Part shown: in pieces, positions 39,186 through 44,827 of the stretch
Layout: each line of letters starts with the position of its first letter
How positions within the stretch are numbered: position 1 is the stretch's first letter
NCBI GenBank assembly: GCA_903825945.1
Contig: CAIKCJ010000014.1
Coordinates: 62,001-126,000 of the forward strand
Length of the DNA stretch: 64,000 bases
Origin: an uncultured Actinomycetes bacterium
Lineage (GTDB): Bacteria > Actinomycetota > Actinomycetes > Nanopelagicales > Nanopelagicaceae
Reading direction: 5' to 3'
The notes under the pieces: generated by a model
Told to the model about the DNA's origin: nothing
The model's input: only the letters and a program-made list of their open reading frames with translations
The model's database searches: none
Made by a program: the position numbers and the translations under genes

Positions 39186-40385
39186 CTAATCGGCCTCCTC
39201 GGTAGCAGGAGTCTGCGGGCGAGCCGACAGAAGGCGAGCAGGGCGCACGCTTCCGCTACCAAATCGGGCACTGGCCTGATCCAGAGCAGCAGTCGCCTCA
39301 CGCCAGCCCCGATCGCGCTCCCCCAAGAGCATCTGCATGGGAACGCCATCGGCATCCACTAACCCTTCGAGGCCAATTCCGATGAGGCGGATTCGAGCTC
39401 GATCCAATCTCAGCCCTTCATACAACTTCTTAGCAACCTCGTAGCAATCTTGAAGTCCATCAATAGGTAATGGAACCGTTTTGGAGCGAGAAATTGTTTT
39501 GAAATCTGCGAAGCGAACTTTGATTGAGATTGTCTGTGCAGACATTTTTCGCGCACGCAGCCTCGCAGTCGCTTTCTCGGTCAGGCTCAATAGCTCGCGC
39601 AAGATCGCCTCTTGATCTTCTAGATCAAAAGGAAATGTCTCTGCAGCGCTAATGCTCTTGTCTGGTTCATCTGGAGTAACGGCTCTGTAATCGCGCCCCC
39701 ATGCAAGTTCATAGAGATGCACTCCGACTGATTCACCGAGTGCGCGAATGAGCGTCTGGCGTGGCGTATGTGCGATATCTGCAATTGTTCGCAAACCCAA
39801 CCGCGCCAACTCTTCATTTGTTTTTGGCCCCACTCCCCATATCGCTTTGACTGGAAGAGGATGCAAGAAATCAATGACTTTATTGGGGTCAATTTCAAGC
39901 AGACCATTTGGCTTGCAATGGTCTGATGCCAATTTTGCAATAAATTTTGTCGAAGCTATTCCCACAGAGCATGTGATCTTTTCTGCCTCAAATACTTCAG
40001 ATCGAATCTTCTCTCCAATTTCGCGACCACTACCAAGTAGTCGCTTTGATCCAGTGACATCAAGAAAGGCCTCATCAAGGGAAATGGGTTCGACAAGCGG
40101 TGTGTATCGCGCGAATATCTCCATCACCACTTCTGATACTTCTCGATACCGCGAATGGTGCGGTGGAACAAAGATTGCATGTGGTGCCATGCGCTGAGCT
40201 TGACCGACTGGCATCGCTGCACGAATACCGAATTTGCGCGCTTGGTAATTAGCCGAGAGAACTACTCCTCGCGATCCGCCTCCGACCACTACTGCTTTGC
40301 CTTGCAATGTTGGATCGTCTCGCTCTTCCACGGATGCAAAGAATGCATCCATATCAATATGCAAAATAGTTGAGTTCTCAGACAT
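39186..40385 (-). CDS. dinB: DNA polymerase IV, Y family (DinB)
   Basis: Translesion polymerase, 399 residues. The catalytic acids are intact: Asp11 in ILHIDMDAFFASVE and Asp104-Glu105 in SLDEAFLDV, so it is an active Pol IV rather than the inactive ImuB type. Thumb, little-finger and a C-terminal QMLLG segment (a likely clamp-binding motif) are present. The ATG overlaps the dnaE2 stop by 8 bases and has AGGAG upstream, so it should be co-expressed from the SOS promoter at 43,957. Confidence 0.92.
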   Translation of the reverse strand: MSENSTILHIDMDAFFASVEERDDPTLQGKAVVVGGGSRGVVLSANYQARKFGIRAAMPVGQAQRMAPHAIFVPPHHSRYREVSEVVMEIFARYTPLVEPISLDEAFLDVTGSKRLLGSGREIGEKIRSEVFEAEKITCSVGIASTKFIAKLASDHCKPNGLLEIDPNKVIDFLHPLPVKAIWGVGPKTNEELARLGLRTIADIAHTPRQTLIRALGESVGVHLYELAWGRDYRAVTPDEPDKSISAAETFPFDLEDQEAILRELLSLTEKATARLRARKMSAQTISIKVRFADFKTISRSKTVPLPIDGLQDCYEVAKKLYEGLRLDRARIRLIGIGLEGLVDADGVPMQMLLGERDRGWREATAALDQASARFGSGSVRPARLLSARPQTPATEEAD

Positions 40386-43300
40386 CTGAGACTCCTGCGG
40401 CGACCCCATAAACCTGCAGATTACGCCATTTTTTATAAGAGTCAGGGAGTTCCCAGGCCTGTGTTGCTCGCAAAGAGATTCCCTTTGGGCCGGTACGCCT
40501 CACCACTCCCCTCACGAGAAGGAGGGATGAATTAAAGATTAATTGATCGTTCTGCTCCTGAGCATCTTCAAAGAATGTAATGTCATTACAACCATATCCA
40601 TCATCAAGCGTAATGAAGATGACGCGCTTGCCAGAACGAATAGGCGGCATCTGGAGTGCAACTTTAACGCCAGCTACGAGAACGCTGGCTCTCGAACGTT
40701 GGTTAATAAGATCAGATGAACGTATTGCTCCAATGTGATTGAGAAAATCACCATAGAAGCTGAGCATATGAGTCGAGATATCCATTCCCGTAATAGATAA
40801 CTCGTTCTCAACAACATCCGATAATGAGATATCGGGTAATCCGCTAGGAGTTAGCGGTACGGCAGTAAGCGCAAGTGACATCTGATCCGAGCTCTGCGCC
40901 GAGCGCTTGTGCGAGTTGAGTGAATAAATATCCTGCAGATGAAGCAAGAGATCGCGTCGATTGAGACCTGATATCTGCAGTGAGTGAAGATCATCAAATG
41001 CGCCGAGCATTACTAACGCCTCTGCTGTTGGCCTACTTACCGATGTGCGATAAATAAAATCTGCAATATCGCTATAAGGTCTTCCTGAAATGATGCTTTG
41101 TATCTGTACATCATCGATTCCCTGGATATCCGATAGCGCCATTCTGATCTGATAACGGCCATCAACCTTCTCTACGCGATAGGTACTATCGGAACGATTG
41201 ATATCGATAGGAGCAATTCCTACACCAGACTGTCTAGCGTCGTCGAGTATTAAACGCTTGGGGTACATACCGGGATCATGGGTCAGTAACCCAGCTACAA
41301 AAGCAGCGGTGTGGTGGCTCTTTAGCCATGCCGATTGATATGTAGGGAGCGCAAAAGCTGCAGCATGAGCCTTGCAAAATCCAAAGGATGCGAAGGCGTG
41401 CAAGATATCCCAGAGTTCGGAGATTAACGTAGGTGCATACCCGCGTGCGGATGCTGCAGAATAGAACCATTCGCGCATCTGCGCACTGCCTTCTGGCGTT
41501 GACATCTGTCGGCGCCTCTCATCGCCTTCGGCCAGAGTAACTCCGGTGATAATCGAGATGATGCGAATAACTTGCTCATGAAAGACAACCACACCCTCTG
41601 TCTCGCGCAAAACATCGTGGAGATCTGGATGAATCAGATTCCGCTGCGAATATCCTTGGCGCGCATTTAAAAAGGGTCGAATCATGTCGCTCTTAACTGG
41701 ACCCGGCCTAAAGAGTGAGATATCGATAATCAGATCATTAAATGTATCTGGTGCGAACTTGCCTATGAGTTCGCGTTGCCCCGGACTTTCAATTTGAAAG
41801 ACCCCAATAGTTTTTGTTGATTTAATGAGATCAAAAGTTGCCGGATCATCGAGCGCTATAGAGTCGATATCGACCTGCTGCTGATCGACTCGCTCTATCT
41901 CTCGTAGCGCATAACTCATCGCTGATTGCATGCGGACGCCGAGAATGTCTAGTTTAAGTAAGCCAATTGCCTCTACATCATCTTTATCGAAAGTGAGCAT
42001 TGGATATCCGCTGGCATTAATATCCATCGGTGCATAGTCCAAGAGTTTCGAGTTAGAGAGAACGACAGCGCACGGATGCATAGCGAGGTTGCGTGGTAGC
42101 CCATAAAGTCTTTTGGCTAACTGCATAACTGTTTTGAGAATTGGTGTATCTATCTTCTCGCGCATATGGGAACGAGATTTGGCCAACATGTCGATCTCCA
42201 TGGGCGAGACTCCGAGCGCTGCCCCAACATCACGAATTGCATGTCGCGAGCGATAGCGCTCGACCATCGCCACCGTTGCGCACGAGGTATTGGCGCCAAC
42301 GGTGTAGCCACCACTAAATCCATAACGTGCAAAGACCGCGTCATAAATTTCAAGGCGCCTATCGGACTCCACATCGATATCAATATCTGGCAACTCGGCT
42401 CGCAAGGTCGAGCAGAAACGCTCCATAAGAAGCCCATGCCCGATTGGCTCTACCCCTGATATTCCTAAGAGATAACAGATAAGCGAGCCTGCGCCGCTAC
42501 CCCGTGCTGCAACTCTGATTCCACGCATGCGCGCCATATCTGCAACATCTGCAACGGTAAGGAAATAGGGCTCAAAACCAAGTGCAGTTACGGTCGCCAA
42601 CTCTTCATCGAGGCGAGATGCCGCCGCTACAGATAGCTCACCGGTATATCGACCGAGCGCTCCTTGGGTGCGTCGAGTGAGTTCGCTGCGATCTGCAACA
42701 TGCGGAAGATGAATCCCCCCTAAGCCAATATCGCGCCTTGGCGATAAACGCACTCGCTCTGCTAGATCATAGGTATCTGCGAGTAAGCGATTTCCGTTTC
42801 TCTCGCCAGCGACTCGAGCAATCTCATCGGCAACCCATCTCATCTCTTCGAAACTTTTTAAGTAGGCCTCACTATTGCTTCTCTCAACATGCTTAGCGGC
42901 AAGTGGAACGAGCTGGCGAGACGCATCCAAAATATCTGCAACCGGCCCATCATCTCGATTAAGCATCCGCACTTGATTAGTGAGTATTGCGGGCAATCCA
43001 TAGTCTCTAGCAAAACCTAAAGCTCGTGCAGCAAAGGGGGTAGAGAGCGCTCCTGATCCTGCGCGTAGGTGAGATGTGCATTCGATGAACTGGCCGGCAA
43101 AGAGCTCTGTGGTGGAGTGAAAGATGGAGAGTGCTTGCTCATAGCGTCTGGCATTAATAGCAGAGTGAAGTTCTGAGCGCGCGCCATGTAGCGCTATGAG
43201 ACGGGATGAATATGCGGATGCCTCTTCTAAAATTTTGTATGTGAGAATCTTCTCTTCACTCATATTAATTGTGGTCACTAAACGGTAGAGCGCATCGAGT

Positions 43301-43560
43301 GATCCAGGTTGTGCTAAAAGTGTGATCTGATTTTTCTTCTGTAGAAAACCAAGAGTGATCCCAAGAATTGGATCGATGCCATGGGACTCACAACTCTTAG
43401 CAAAGACGATCGCGCCGGCAAGAGATGATCTATCGGTGAGAGCGAGCGCAGTACCTCCTTGCTGCGCAGTTCGCTCAACGAGTTCTTCTGGCAGCGCAGT
43501 TCCATATTTAAAGGAGTAGCCGCTAGATGCATGGAGATGGGTAAATGAATTCTTGGACAT
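40378..43560 (-). CDS. dnaE2: Error-prone DNA polymerase III alpha subunit (DnaE2)
   Basis: Damage-inducible C-family polymerase, 1060 residues, about 110 shorter than DnaE1 here. Palm acids are kept (PDIDIDVESDRR and GLLKLDILGVR). The N-terminal PHP domain has lost metal ligands: HLHAS and TDRSS replace the HLHVH and TDHGN of DnaE1, so no proofreading is expected. It begins one base after the DUF6504 stop and overlaps dinB. No imuA' or imuB is in the window, although they usually accompany dnaE2 in actinobacteria. Confidence 0.92.
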   Translation of the reverse strand: MSKNSFTHLHASSGYSFKYGTALPEELVERTAQQGGTALALTDRSSLAGAIVFAKSCESHGIDPILGITLGFLQKKNQITLLAQPGSLDALYRLVTTINMSEEKILTYKILEEASAYSSRLIALHGARSELHSAINARRYEQALSIFHSTTELFAGQFIECTSHLRAGSGALSTPFAARALGFARDYGLPAILTNQVRMLNRDDGPVADILDASRQLVPLAAKHVERSNSEAYLKSFEEMRWVADEIARVAGERNGNRLLADTYDLAERVRLSPRRDIGLGGIHLPHVADRSELTRRTQGALGRYTGELSVAAASRLDEELATVTALGFEPYFLTVADVADMARMRGIRVAARGSGAGSLICYLLGISGVEPIGHGLLMERFCSTLRAELPDIDIDVESDRRLEIYDAVFARYGFSGGYTVGANTSCATVAMVERYRSRHAIRDVGAALGVSPMEIDMLAKSRSHMREKIDTPILKTVMQLAKRLYGLPRNLAMHPCAVVLSNSKLLDYAPMDINASGYPMLTFDKDDVEAIGLLKLDILGVRMQSAMSYALREIERVDQQQVDIDSIALDDPATFDLIKSTKTIGVFQIESPGQRELIGKFAPDTFNDLIIDISLFRPGPVKSDMIRPFLNARQGYSQRNLIHPDLHDVLRETEGVVVFHEQVIRIISIITGVTLAEGDERRRQMSTPEGSAQMREWFYSAASARGYAPTLISELWDILHAFASFGFCKAHAAAFALPTYQSAWLKSHHTAAFVAGLLTHDPGMYPKRLILDDARQSGVGIAPIDINRSDSTYRVEKVDGRYQIRMALSDIQGIDDVQIQSIISGRPYSDIADFIYRTSVSRPTAEALVMLGAFDDLHSLQISGLNRRDLLLHLQDIYSLNSHKRSAQSSDQMSLALTAVPLTPSGLPDISLSDVVENELSITGMDISTHMLSFYGDFLNHIGAIRSSDLINQRSRASVLVAGVKVALQMPPIRSGKRVIFITLDDGYGCNDITFFEDAQEQNDQLIFNSSLLLVRGVVRRTGPKGISLRATQAWELPDSYKKWRNLQVYGVAAGVSDV

Positions 43561-43561
43561 T

Positions 43562-43948
43562 TTATGCCGAGCCGGCTCTTCTTATATTGGAGTTGCTTGT
43601 AGTGGAGTTGCTTGCATGAGATGGCCTAGAGGTGGGGCGGATCTGCCACTTTCCAGTGATCTCATCGAGCTCAATCTCAAAGGTCGCTACTGCGCCCACG
43701 GGGGCAGCCTCTACTCGCCAGATCGCCTTGCCGCCATCATCGAGAATCTGGTCTTCTGCATTCCGGCCTCTGACATGGCTGCGATTGAGACGACCATCAT
43801 CAATTCGATTCCACCATCCCCCGGACTCGCGCCAACGAGAGACGATGCCGTGGACGTGAAAACGGACCCCTTTATAGATAAATTCCATGGGTTCACCCTC
43901 CGGGGCGATGACCGCTGGAGGTACTGGATTAGTGAGTTCTTCGAACAT
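43562..43948 (-). CDS. DUF6504-family small protein, first gene of SOS cassette
   Basis: A 128-residue protein. The conserved part is PMEFIYKGVRFHVHGIVSRW, then RESGGWWNR and WRVEA; the Ser/Asn-rich tail is probably disordered. Members of this family are encoded beside dnaE2 and Y-family polymerases in actinobacteria, but the function is not known. The ATG at 43,948 lies inside the SOS palindrome and TATCTT lies eight bases upstream, so a leaderless message is likely; an internal ATG at residue 21 is the alternative. Family naming is from memory of the pattern. Confidence 0.7.
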   Translation of the reverse strand: MFEELTNPVPPAVIAPEGEPMEFIYKGVRFHVHGIVSRWRESGGWWNRIDDGRLNRSHVRGRNAEDQILDDGGKAIWRVEAAPVGAVATFEIELDEITGKWQIRPTSRPSHASNSTTSNSNIRRAGSA

Positions 43949-43962
43949 ATGTTCGAAAGATA
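43940..43962 (-). promoter_or_regulatory. LexA/SOS box and -10 element of DUF6504-dnaE2-dinB
   Basis: TTCGAACATATGTTCGAA is an 18-bp perfect palindrome containing the actinobacterial SOS consensus TCGAAC-N4-GTTCGA. It covers the ATG of the DUF6504 gene and abuts TATCTT (43,957-43,962). LexA bound here would block both initiation of transcription and the start of the message. Confidence 0.92.
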
Positions 43963-44011
43963 ACCGCCCCCGCTGACAGTGGCAAGCCCCTCAGATCACC
44001 GCCGACTGCCG

Positions 44012-44017
44012 TAACCT
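44012..44017 (+). promoter_or_regulatory. Probable leaderless -10 element of the hydrolase-carotenoid operon
   Basis: TAACCT lies six bases before the ATG at 44,024. The 75-base gap to the divergent SOS cassette contains no ribosome site on the plus strand. Confidence 0.55.
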
Positions 44018-44023
44018 CTGCCT

Positions 44024-44827
44024 ATGCGTATGTGGCACCAGCGAAGCGGAAAGGCCACCAACCCGCAGACCACCCCGCCACTGGTGCTGATCCATGGCAT
44101 GGGCTCAGCCAGCACGGCCTGGAGGCTGATCGCGCCAGCTCTCAGCGAGCACCTGGATGTAATCGCCATAGATCTGCCTGGGCATGGCAATACGCCGCTG
44201 CCCAAAGACCAGGCAATGGACCCTTATTCGCTAGCCCTTCTCCTTAAGCAAGAGCTTGATGAGCTTGGCATCACGCGCATCCATGTAGCAGGCAACTCTC
44301 TCGGAGGCTGGATAGCCCTTGAACTCGCCGCCGCCTTCCCTGAGTTGGTATTGAGTGTTGTTGGGTTGGCGCCTGCGGGACTCTGGCTAGTCCCAGCGAC
44401 TCATCGACAAAAGCGCGGCGCCTTAGCGCGATATCTGGCCACTCTCACATATCCCATCGCTCCGTACCTGATGCAATATCAATGGGCGCGGCGAATTGGT
44501 TTCGCGGTCGTCAGTCCACTGTGGCGCGACCTACCGCTAGAAACATGCATCGACGCCACCGTTGCATATGGAACATCAGCCGGTTATTACCCAGCATGGG
44601 ATGGAATGCTCGGACGACGATTCGATAAAGCTATACCAGAGTCGCTGCCAGTCGCCGTTGTTTTCGGAGATCATGACAACACCTTGCCCGCTAAGCATTC
44701 ACAAGAGCGTTCGCTCGTTCCTGCACATACCAATTGGGTGCGAGTCGCTCAATCGGGTCATGCGCCTATGTGGGATCACCCAGATCAGATTGTCACAATC
44801 CTTCTGCAAACTGTGAACGCGGCATGA
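44024..44827 (+). CDS. Alpha/beta hydrolase at head of carotenoid operon
   Basis: A 267-residue serine hydrolase with the oxyanion segment VLIHGMGSA, nucleophile elbow GNSLGG (Ser92), Asp in FGDHDN (about 216) and His246 in SGHAPMW. There is no signal peptide, so it is cytosolic, with a hydrophobic cap region (about 120-170). Its stop overlaps the CrtA-like start as ATGA, so it is translated with the carotenoid genes. Its substrate is unknown; an ester or acyl-transfer step on a carotenoid is only one possibility. Confidence 0.85.
   Translation: MRMWHQRSGKATNPQTTPPLVLIHGMGSASTAWRLIAPALSEHLDVIAIDLPGHGNTPLPKDQAMDPYSLALLLKQELDELGITRIHVAGNSLGGWIALELAAAFPELVLSVVGLAPAGLWLVPATHRQKRGALARYLATLTYPIAPYLMQYQWARRIGFAVVSPLWRDLPLETCIDATVAYGTSAGYYPAWDGMLGRRFDKAIPESLPVAVVFGDHDNTLPAKHSQERSLVPAHTNWVRVAQSGHAPMWDHPDQIVTILLQTVNAA

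Follow-up and report, generated by a model that had tools for sequence, protein, structure and literature searches.

A LexA box with an in-frame start codon at the promoter of a DUF6504–dnaE2–dinB operon in a small-genome actinobacterium

Can one short sequence serve at once as the operator of an SOS operon, as the start of its transcript and as the start of its first protein? The question arises on the minus strand of the 64,000-nucleotide stretch of actinobacterial DNA analysed here (the window), where TTCGAACATATGTTCGAA (43940..43957, minus strand) is a perfect 18-bp palindrome and an exact LexA (SOS) box, and where the ATG of a DUF6504 gene (43946..43948, minus strand), identified by the ORF and by a family-wide frame comparison, forms positions 10–12 of that box. 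The preliminary description had pointed to this palindrome with the ATG inside it, and to TATCTT eight bases ahead of the ATG with no ribosome site; all of this was borne out in the window sequence. We consider it highly probable that, at the promoter–operator of this SOS mutagenesis operon, the LexA operator coincides with both the predicted transcription start and the translation start.

The operator, the promoter and the operon in the window

The dyad axis of the LexA box is the −1/+1 junction of the DUF6504 ATG, and the right half of the box codes for Met-Phe-Glu, residues 1–3 of the protein. The final T of the −10 element TATCTT (43957..43962, minus strand) is also the first T of the box, a 1-bp overlap that leaves 8 nt before the ATG, and a −35-like TTGCCA (43980..43985, minus strand) lies 17 nt before TATCTT. 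The minus-strand order is TTGCCA-CTGTCAGCGGGGGCGGT-TATCTT-TCGAACAT-ATG-TTCGAA. No Shine–Dalgarno-like sequence was found ahead of the box ATG in the window sequence, and no possible start lies between the upstream stop of the ORF and this ATG, which thus has no competitor on that side. The source genome, covered here through searches and short stretches, is an actinobacterial MAG of 1.26 Mb in 51 contigs, 94.8% complete. Shuffling gave an expectation of 0.20 per window for box matches with up to three mismatches, and the 16-bp core TCGAACN4GTTCGA has only two occurrences in the genome, one at the DUF6504 promoter and one upstream of lexA; given this rarity, the box at DUF6504 is not a chance occurrence.

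DUF6504 is the first gene of a minus-strand operon, DUF6504–dnaE2–dinB. The gene (43562..43948, minus strand; 128 aa; PF20114, E=1.7e-7) encodes, according to the alignment, a variable Pro/Ala-rich N-terminal linker followed by a conserved small domain. Its stop is separated by a 1-nt gap, replaced by an ATGA overlap in relatives, from dnaE2 (40378..43560, minus strand), which encodes an error-prone C-family DNA polymerase (PF07733, PF17657, PRK05672, and a tree with relatives). The third gene, dinB (39186..40409, minus strand), encodes a DNA polymerase IV with its catalytic residues kept; its true start is perhaps at 40385, with AGGAG upstream. This DinB is the sole Y-family polymerase found in the 94.8% complete MAG. 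ImuB, a catalytically dead Y-family protein, was not found there, so that by gene content this is not a complete ImuA'-ImuB-DnaE2 mutasome. In nearly all of the family loci seen, DUF6504 immediately precedes dnaE2; its N-terminal linker changes fast, and the protein may act as an accessory to DnaE2 in the absence of ImuB. The predicted structure (mean pLDDT 65, best PDB match E=2.7) did not yield a function, neither DUF6504 nor PafB nor PafC received a name from NCBIfam, and the name DUF6504 was not found in the mostly open-access literature searched. At L044/L046 (genome G001), a frameshift near EDVIF interrupts the DUF6504 frame; this may reflect either an error in sequencing or a genuine pseudogene.

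The genome has a lexA gene, and the lexA and recA boxes share their consensus with the DUF6504 box. With a LexA gene in the genome and CGAAC-N4-GTTCG at its promoter, the operon is by sequence a predicted member of the actinobacterial LexA/SOS regulon, and the boxes at the DUF6504 operon, lexA and recA are the SOS core set. The earlier proposal that LexA sits on the +1 and the start codon themselves finds support in this gene, in these boxes and in the position of the dyad.

Among 59 long ORFs in the window, not counting the DUF6504 gene, 14 have TANNNT 6–8 nt before the first start (p=3e-12; the background rate is about 0.6% per position), with spacers of 6 nt in eight genes, 7 nt in two and 8 nt in four. 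Leaderless genes seem to be common in the source genome. At DUF6504, the −10 element stands at leaderless spacing, with no Shine–Dalgarno sequence and no alternative start upstream. Because of the 8-nt spacing, the lack of a Shine–Dalgarno sequence and the leaderless signature in the window, we infer, in agreement with the preliminary description, that the DUF6504 mRNA is leaderless, with a leader of 0–2 nt. The predicted +1 is 43948, the A of the ATG; it may instead be 43950, giving a 2-nt leader (5'-AUAUG), since a spacer of 6 is commoner than one of 8 among the leaderless-looking window genes. As for a transcription start further upstream, the sequence comparison revealed no further promoter at a conserved, fixed position. 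For translation in mycobacteria it is enough that an RTG stands at +1; at +2 to +5 it is probably less effective (PMC4633059). The divergent alpha/beta-hydrolase gene (44024–44827) is also leaderless-looking, with a −10-like TAACCT (44012..44017, plus strand) 6 nt before its ATG, and the 75-bp intergenic region is shared by these two back-to-back leaderless-looking promoters.

A conserved element upstream of the −10

Upstream of the box lies a putative PafBC/RecA-independent promoter element, TGTCAG-N10-TATCTT (43957..43978, minus strand), whose TGTCAG occupies 43973–43978. It was recognized by motif conservation in a comparison set of 148 distinct related regions from genomes of the family, 130 of which match TGTCRG-N10-TANNNT; few upstream bases are as well conserved as TGTC at its fixed spacing. 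The RecA-NDp consensus, as Gamulin reportedly gave it in 2004, is tTGTCRGtg-N8-TAnnnT. PafB and PafC (HTH_PafC, WYL, WCX) are encoded in the genome by neighbouring genes, which adjoin an FKBP gene; with these proteins and the conserved element, the promoter is by sequence a candidate for the PafBC (RecA-NDp) class. PafBC binds ssDNA and brings sigma-A polymerase to a −26 motif (PMC11804915), and mycobacterial genes with both a RecA-NDp motif and an SOS box are known (PMC8223512).

The pattern of conservation suggests that the DUF6504 promoter reads two damage signals, the removal of LexA from the start site and the action of PafBC on the upstream element. A simpler design, with the same leaderless start in the box, LexA as sole control and TGTCRG as part of a sigma-A −35 or spacer, is the best of the alternatives, and we regard it as unlikely rather than far-fetched. 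The TTG 17–18 nt upstream of the −10 is also widely conserved, and part of the TGTC/TTG conservation could reflect an ordinary −35 region; Streptomyces venezuelae has PafBC but does not have the mycobacterial PafBC motif (PMC9380542). Moreover, the PafBC-type pattern is not enriched genome-wide (7 matches versus 11 for a reversed control), which makes the two-signal step less certain, and the support for the element is its conservation at the DUF6504 promoter, not its abundance. Against LexA alone stand the fixed spacing and high conservation of TGTC, its fit to the mycobacterial RecA-independent motif, the presence of PafBC in the genome, and the same element in the promoter of a LysM-like gene divergent from lexA. 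Of the economical on/off design put forward in the preliminary description, the merger of box and start is supported, whereas control by LexA alone is probably too simple, since the conserved PafBC-type element had been overlooked.

The start codon across the genus and the family

A scan for the same geometry, which the preliminary description had proposed, was run on 296 genomes of the family; the full arrangement TANNNTTCGAACNNATGTTCGA was present in 123 of them, and the reversed control pattern in none. TANNNT abuts the LexA box at exactly the same place in 147 of the 148 related regions. In the 26 genus members that have the gene, every region keeps the box core, TATCTT and an in-frame ATG; some missing genes are attributed to MAG gaps. 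Where the box carries ATG, the frame is open into DUF6504 in 89 of 95 regions, and where it carries CTG or TTG, the frame is open in 8 and closed or shifted in 45 of 53 (Fisher p=5e-23, a nominal value since the sequences are related, and such values are inflated by kinship). A downstream ATG is present in 52 of these 53 regions, 44 of them with an SD-like sequence. In the clade that lost the in-box ATG, the LexA half-sites stayed while the ATG became CTG or TTG, which argues that the ATG is held by translation and not by LexA. The linker between the ATG and the domain varies in length, with 15 values in the genus and 27 in the family, each a multiple of three; within the genus it has no stop in frame 0, with stops present in the other frames, and its differences fall on codon positions 1/2/3 as 39/34/85 (19 disjoint pairs, nominal p=3e-7).

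These observations bear on a more conventional reading, which we consider very improbable, in which an ordinary LexA operator follows the −10, the transcript carries a leader, and translation begins further in, for example at Met21 or at a linker GTG. By sequence, the sister clade fits such a scheme: its promoter and box are the same, CTG or TTG replaces the ATG, and an ATG, mostly accompanied by an SD-like sequence, follows downstream. In addition, an SD-like sequence lies close to an alternative start in 9 of 88 in-box genes. However, 46 of the 88 have no other in-frame start before the domain, the window linker offers none before the domain motif, and the linker indels in multiples of three and the variability of third positions are those of coding sequence. 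Met21, which had been named beforehand as the start that would overturn the in-box reading, is replaced by I, L, V or T in the majority of relatives, and was rejected as a start for lack of conservation. In several of the loci with a downstream ATG (L063, L086, L092 and others), a conserved TATCCACAG directly follows the LexA box, and in L086, from the clade with the moved start codon, TTATCCACA just after the box is DnaA-box-like.

The lexA promoter served as a control. In the genus, the lexA box carries ATG, GTG or TTG, always in frame, at a constant 39 nt from the lexA ATG; that the DUF6504 ATG is likewise a by-product of a box at fixed upstream distance is the least credible alternative, since stops close the frame of the lexA box in several species and a separate TANNNT-6-ATG belongs to lexA itself, whereas the DUF6504 distance varies over its 27 lengths and is always in frame. 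A start inside the lexA box was rejected for the same constant spacing, stops and separate −10. Frame alone would thus have misled at lexA, and it is the varying linker length that makes the DUF6504 case strong. The lexA gene of the genus looks leaderless too, to judge from TANNNT-6-ATG, and the in-frame uORF-like MFD...YP ahead of it is probably a by-product of promoter spacing. In L259-L275, the lexA box sits over the likely −35. LexA had no match in G002, G018, G020, G021 and G026, fairly complete genus MAGs with perfect LexA boxes; lexA lies near contig ends in other genus members, and therefore these absences are probably assembly gaps or breaks.

The start inside the DUF6504 box is further supported by two genomes with a split operon. 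In G002 and G021, a second promoter, box and in-box ATG lie ~1.9 kb downstream of the first. The entire stretch between the promoters was read in G002, where an AbiEi/AbiEii type IV toxin-antitoxin module is visible as an insertion between DUF6504 and dnaE2 (L278:1084-2443) and the duplicated SOS promoter lies downstream of this module; a similar second promoter is present in L279. The ORF read from the second box has 28 codons in G002, where its TGA overlaps the dnaE2 ATG as ATGA, and 27 in G021, whose contig ends at the same ATGAAACT junction. Such a coupled leader peptide is sensible only with a ribosome start in the box. The claim that the start codon lies inside the box is thus upheld by family-wide frame conservation, by coding-type substitutions and by these split operons.

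On a DnaE2 tree of 77 rows built by a quick method, a single change at the base of the family clade accounts for the abutting −10/box geometry, and the distribution of the in-box ATG is consistent with one gain, one loss and one stray. The loss falls in a nested clade to which a Candidatus Planktophila record belongs. The stray, L091, is probably a coincidence, since its downstream ATG is kept as well. We lean towards the view that the operator/start, the PafBC-type element and the −10 form one heritable cassette, which would have been gained once, remained invariant in changing surroundings, been re-used after the toxin-antitoxin split and, when abandoned, had its ATG decay to CTG or TTG with the half-sites kept.

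A proposed mechanism and its relation to known systems

The best explanation brings together the box, the −10 abutment, the in-frame start, the coding selection on the linker and their conservation, all from sequence comparison, with a predicted transcription start, LexA and PafBC binding and leaderless translation in the source organism. Before damage, a LexA dimer centred on −1/+1 would cover the start site and block RNA polymerase. After damage, LexA would be cleaved, and RNA polymerase would start at the A of the ATG or two bases upstream; the TGTCRG 10 nt upstream of the −10 would probably let ssDNA-activated PafBC recruit sigma-A polymerase. Ribosomes would read the leaderless mRNA from its 5' AUG, making DUF6504 first, and would pass from DUF6504 to dnaE2 by coupling.

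The comparison of about 150 related promoters, on which the in-box start reading rests, supports the proposal that in a group of small-genome actinobacteria one 18-bp sequence may be the off-switch, the predicted RNA start and the protein start. An operator that dictates the first three residues of DUF6504, with the repressor on the +1, would be an extreme compression of control in small genomes. The in-box ATG and the downstream-ATG clade, with the same promoter, provide a natural experiment on leaderless translation in the damage response, and the combination of LexA and PafBC is a testable two-signal design for an error-prone polymerase operon.

Our search of the mostly open-access literature found no case of a LexA box containing a start codon. 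Mycobacterium tuberculosis lexA is a LexA-regulated gene whose translation start is its transcription start (PMC2897130), as predicted here; unlike in that gene, for which we found no report of an in-box start, the box dyad here is centred on the start codon. The combination of a LexA box with a PafBC-type element resembles the mycobacterial genes with RecA-NDp motif and SOS box (PMC8223512, PMC8151990), but here the −10, the LexA box and the start codon are fused within a single promoter, that of the dnaE2 operon. Streptomyces venezuelae dnaE2-dinP is likewise a LexA-controlled dnaE2-dinB(dinP) pair, as predicted for the present operon, although its box is listed at −68 and the PafBC motif is reported not to be conserved there (PMC9380542). 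Finally, acuR of Rhodobacter sphaeroides (PMC3017554) and nreAXY of Mesorhizobium (PMC12724321) are repressor-controlled leaderless operons, as we predict for DUF6504–dnaE2–dinB; they employ other repressor families, and their operators cover the promoter or its spacer rather than the start codon.
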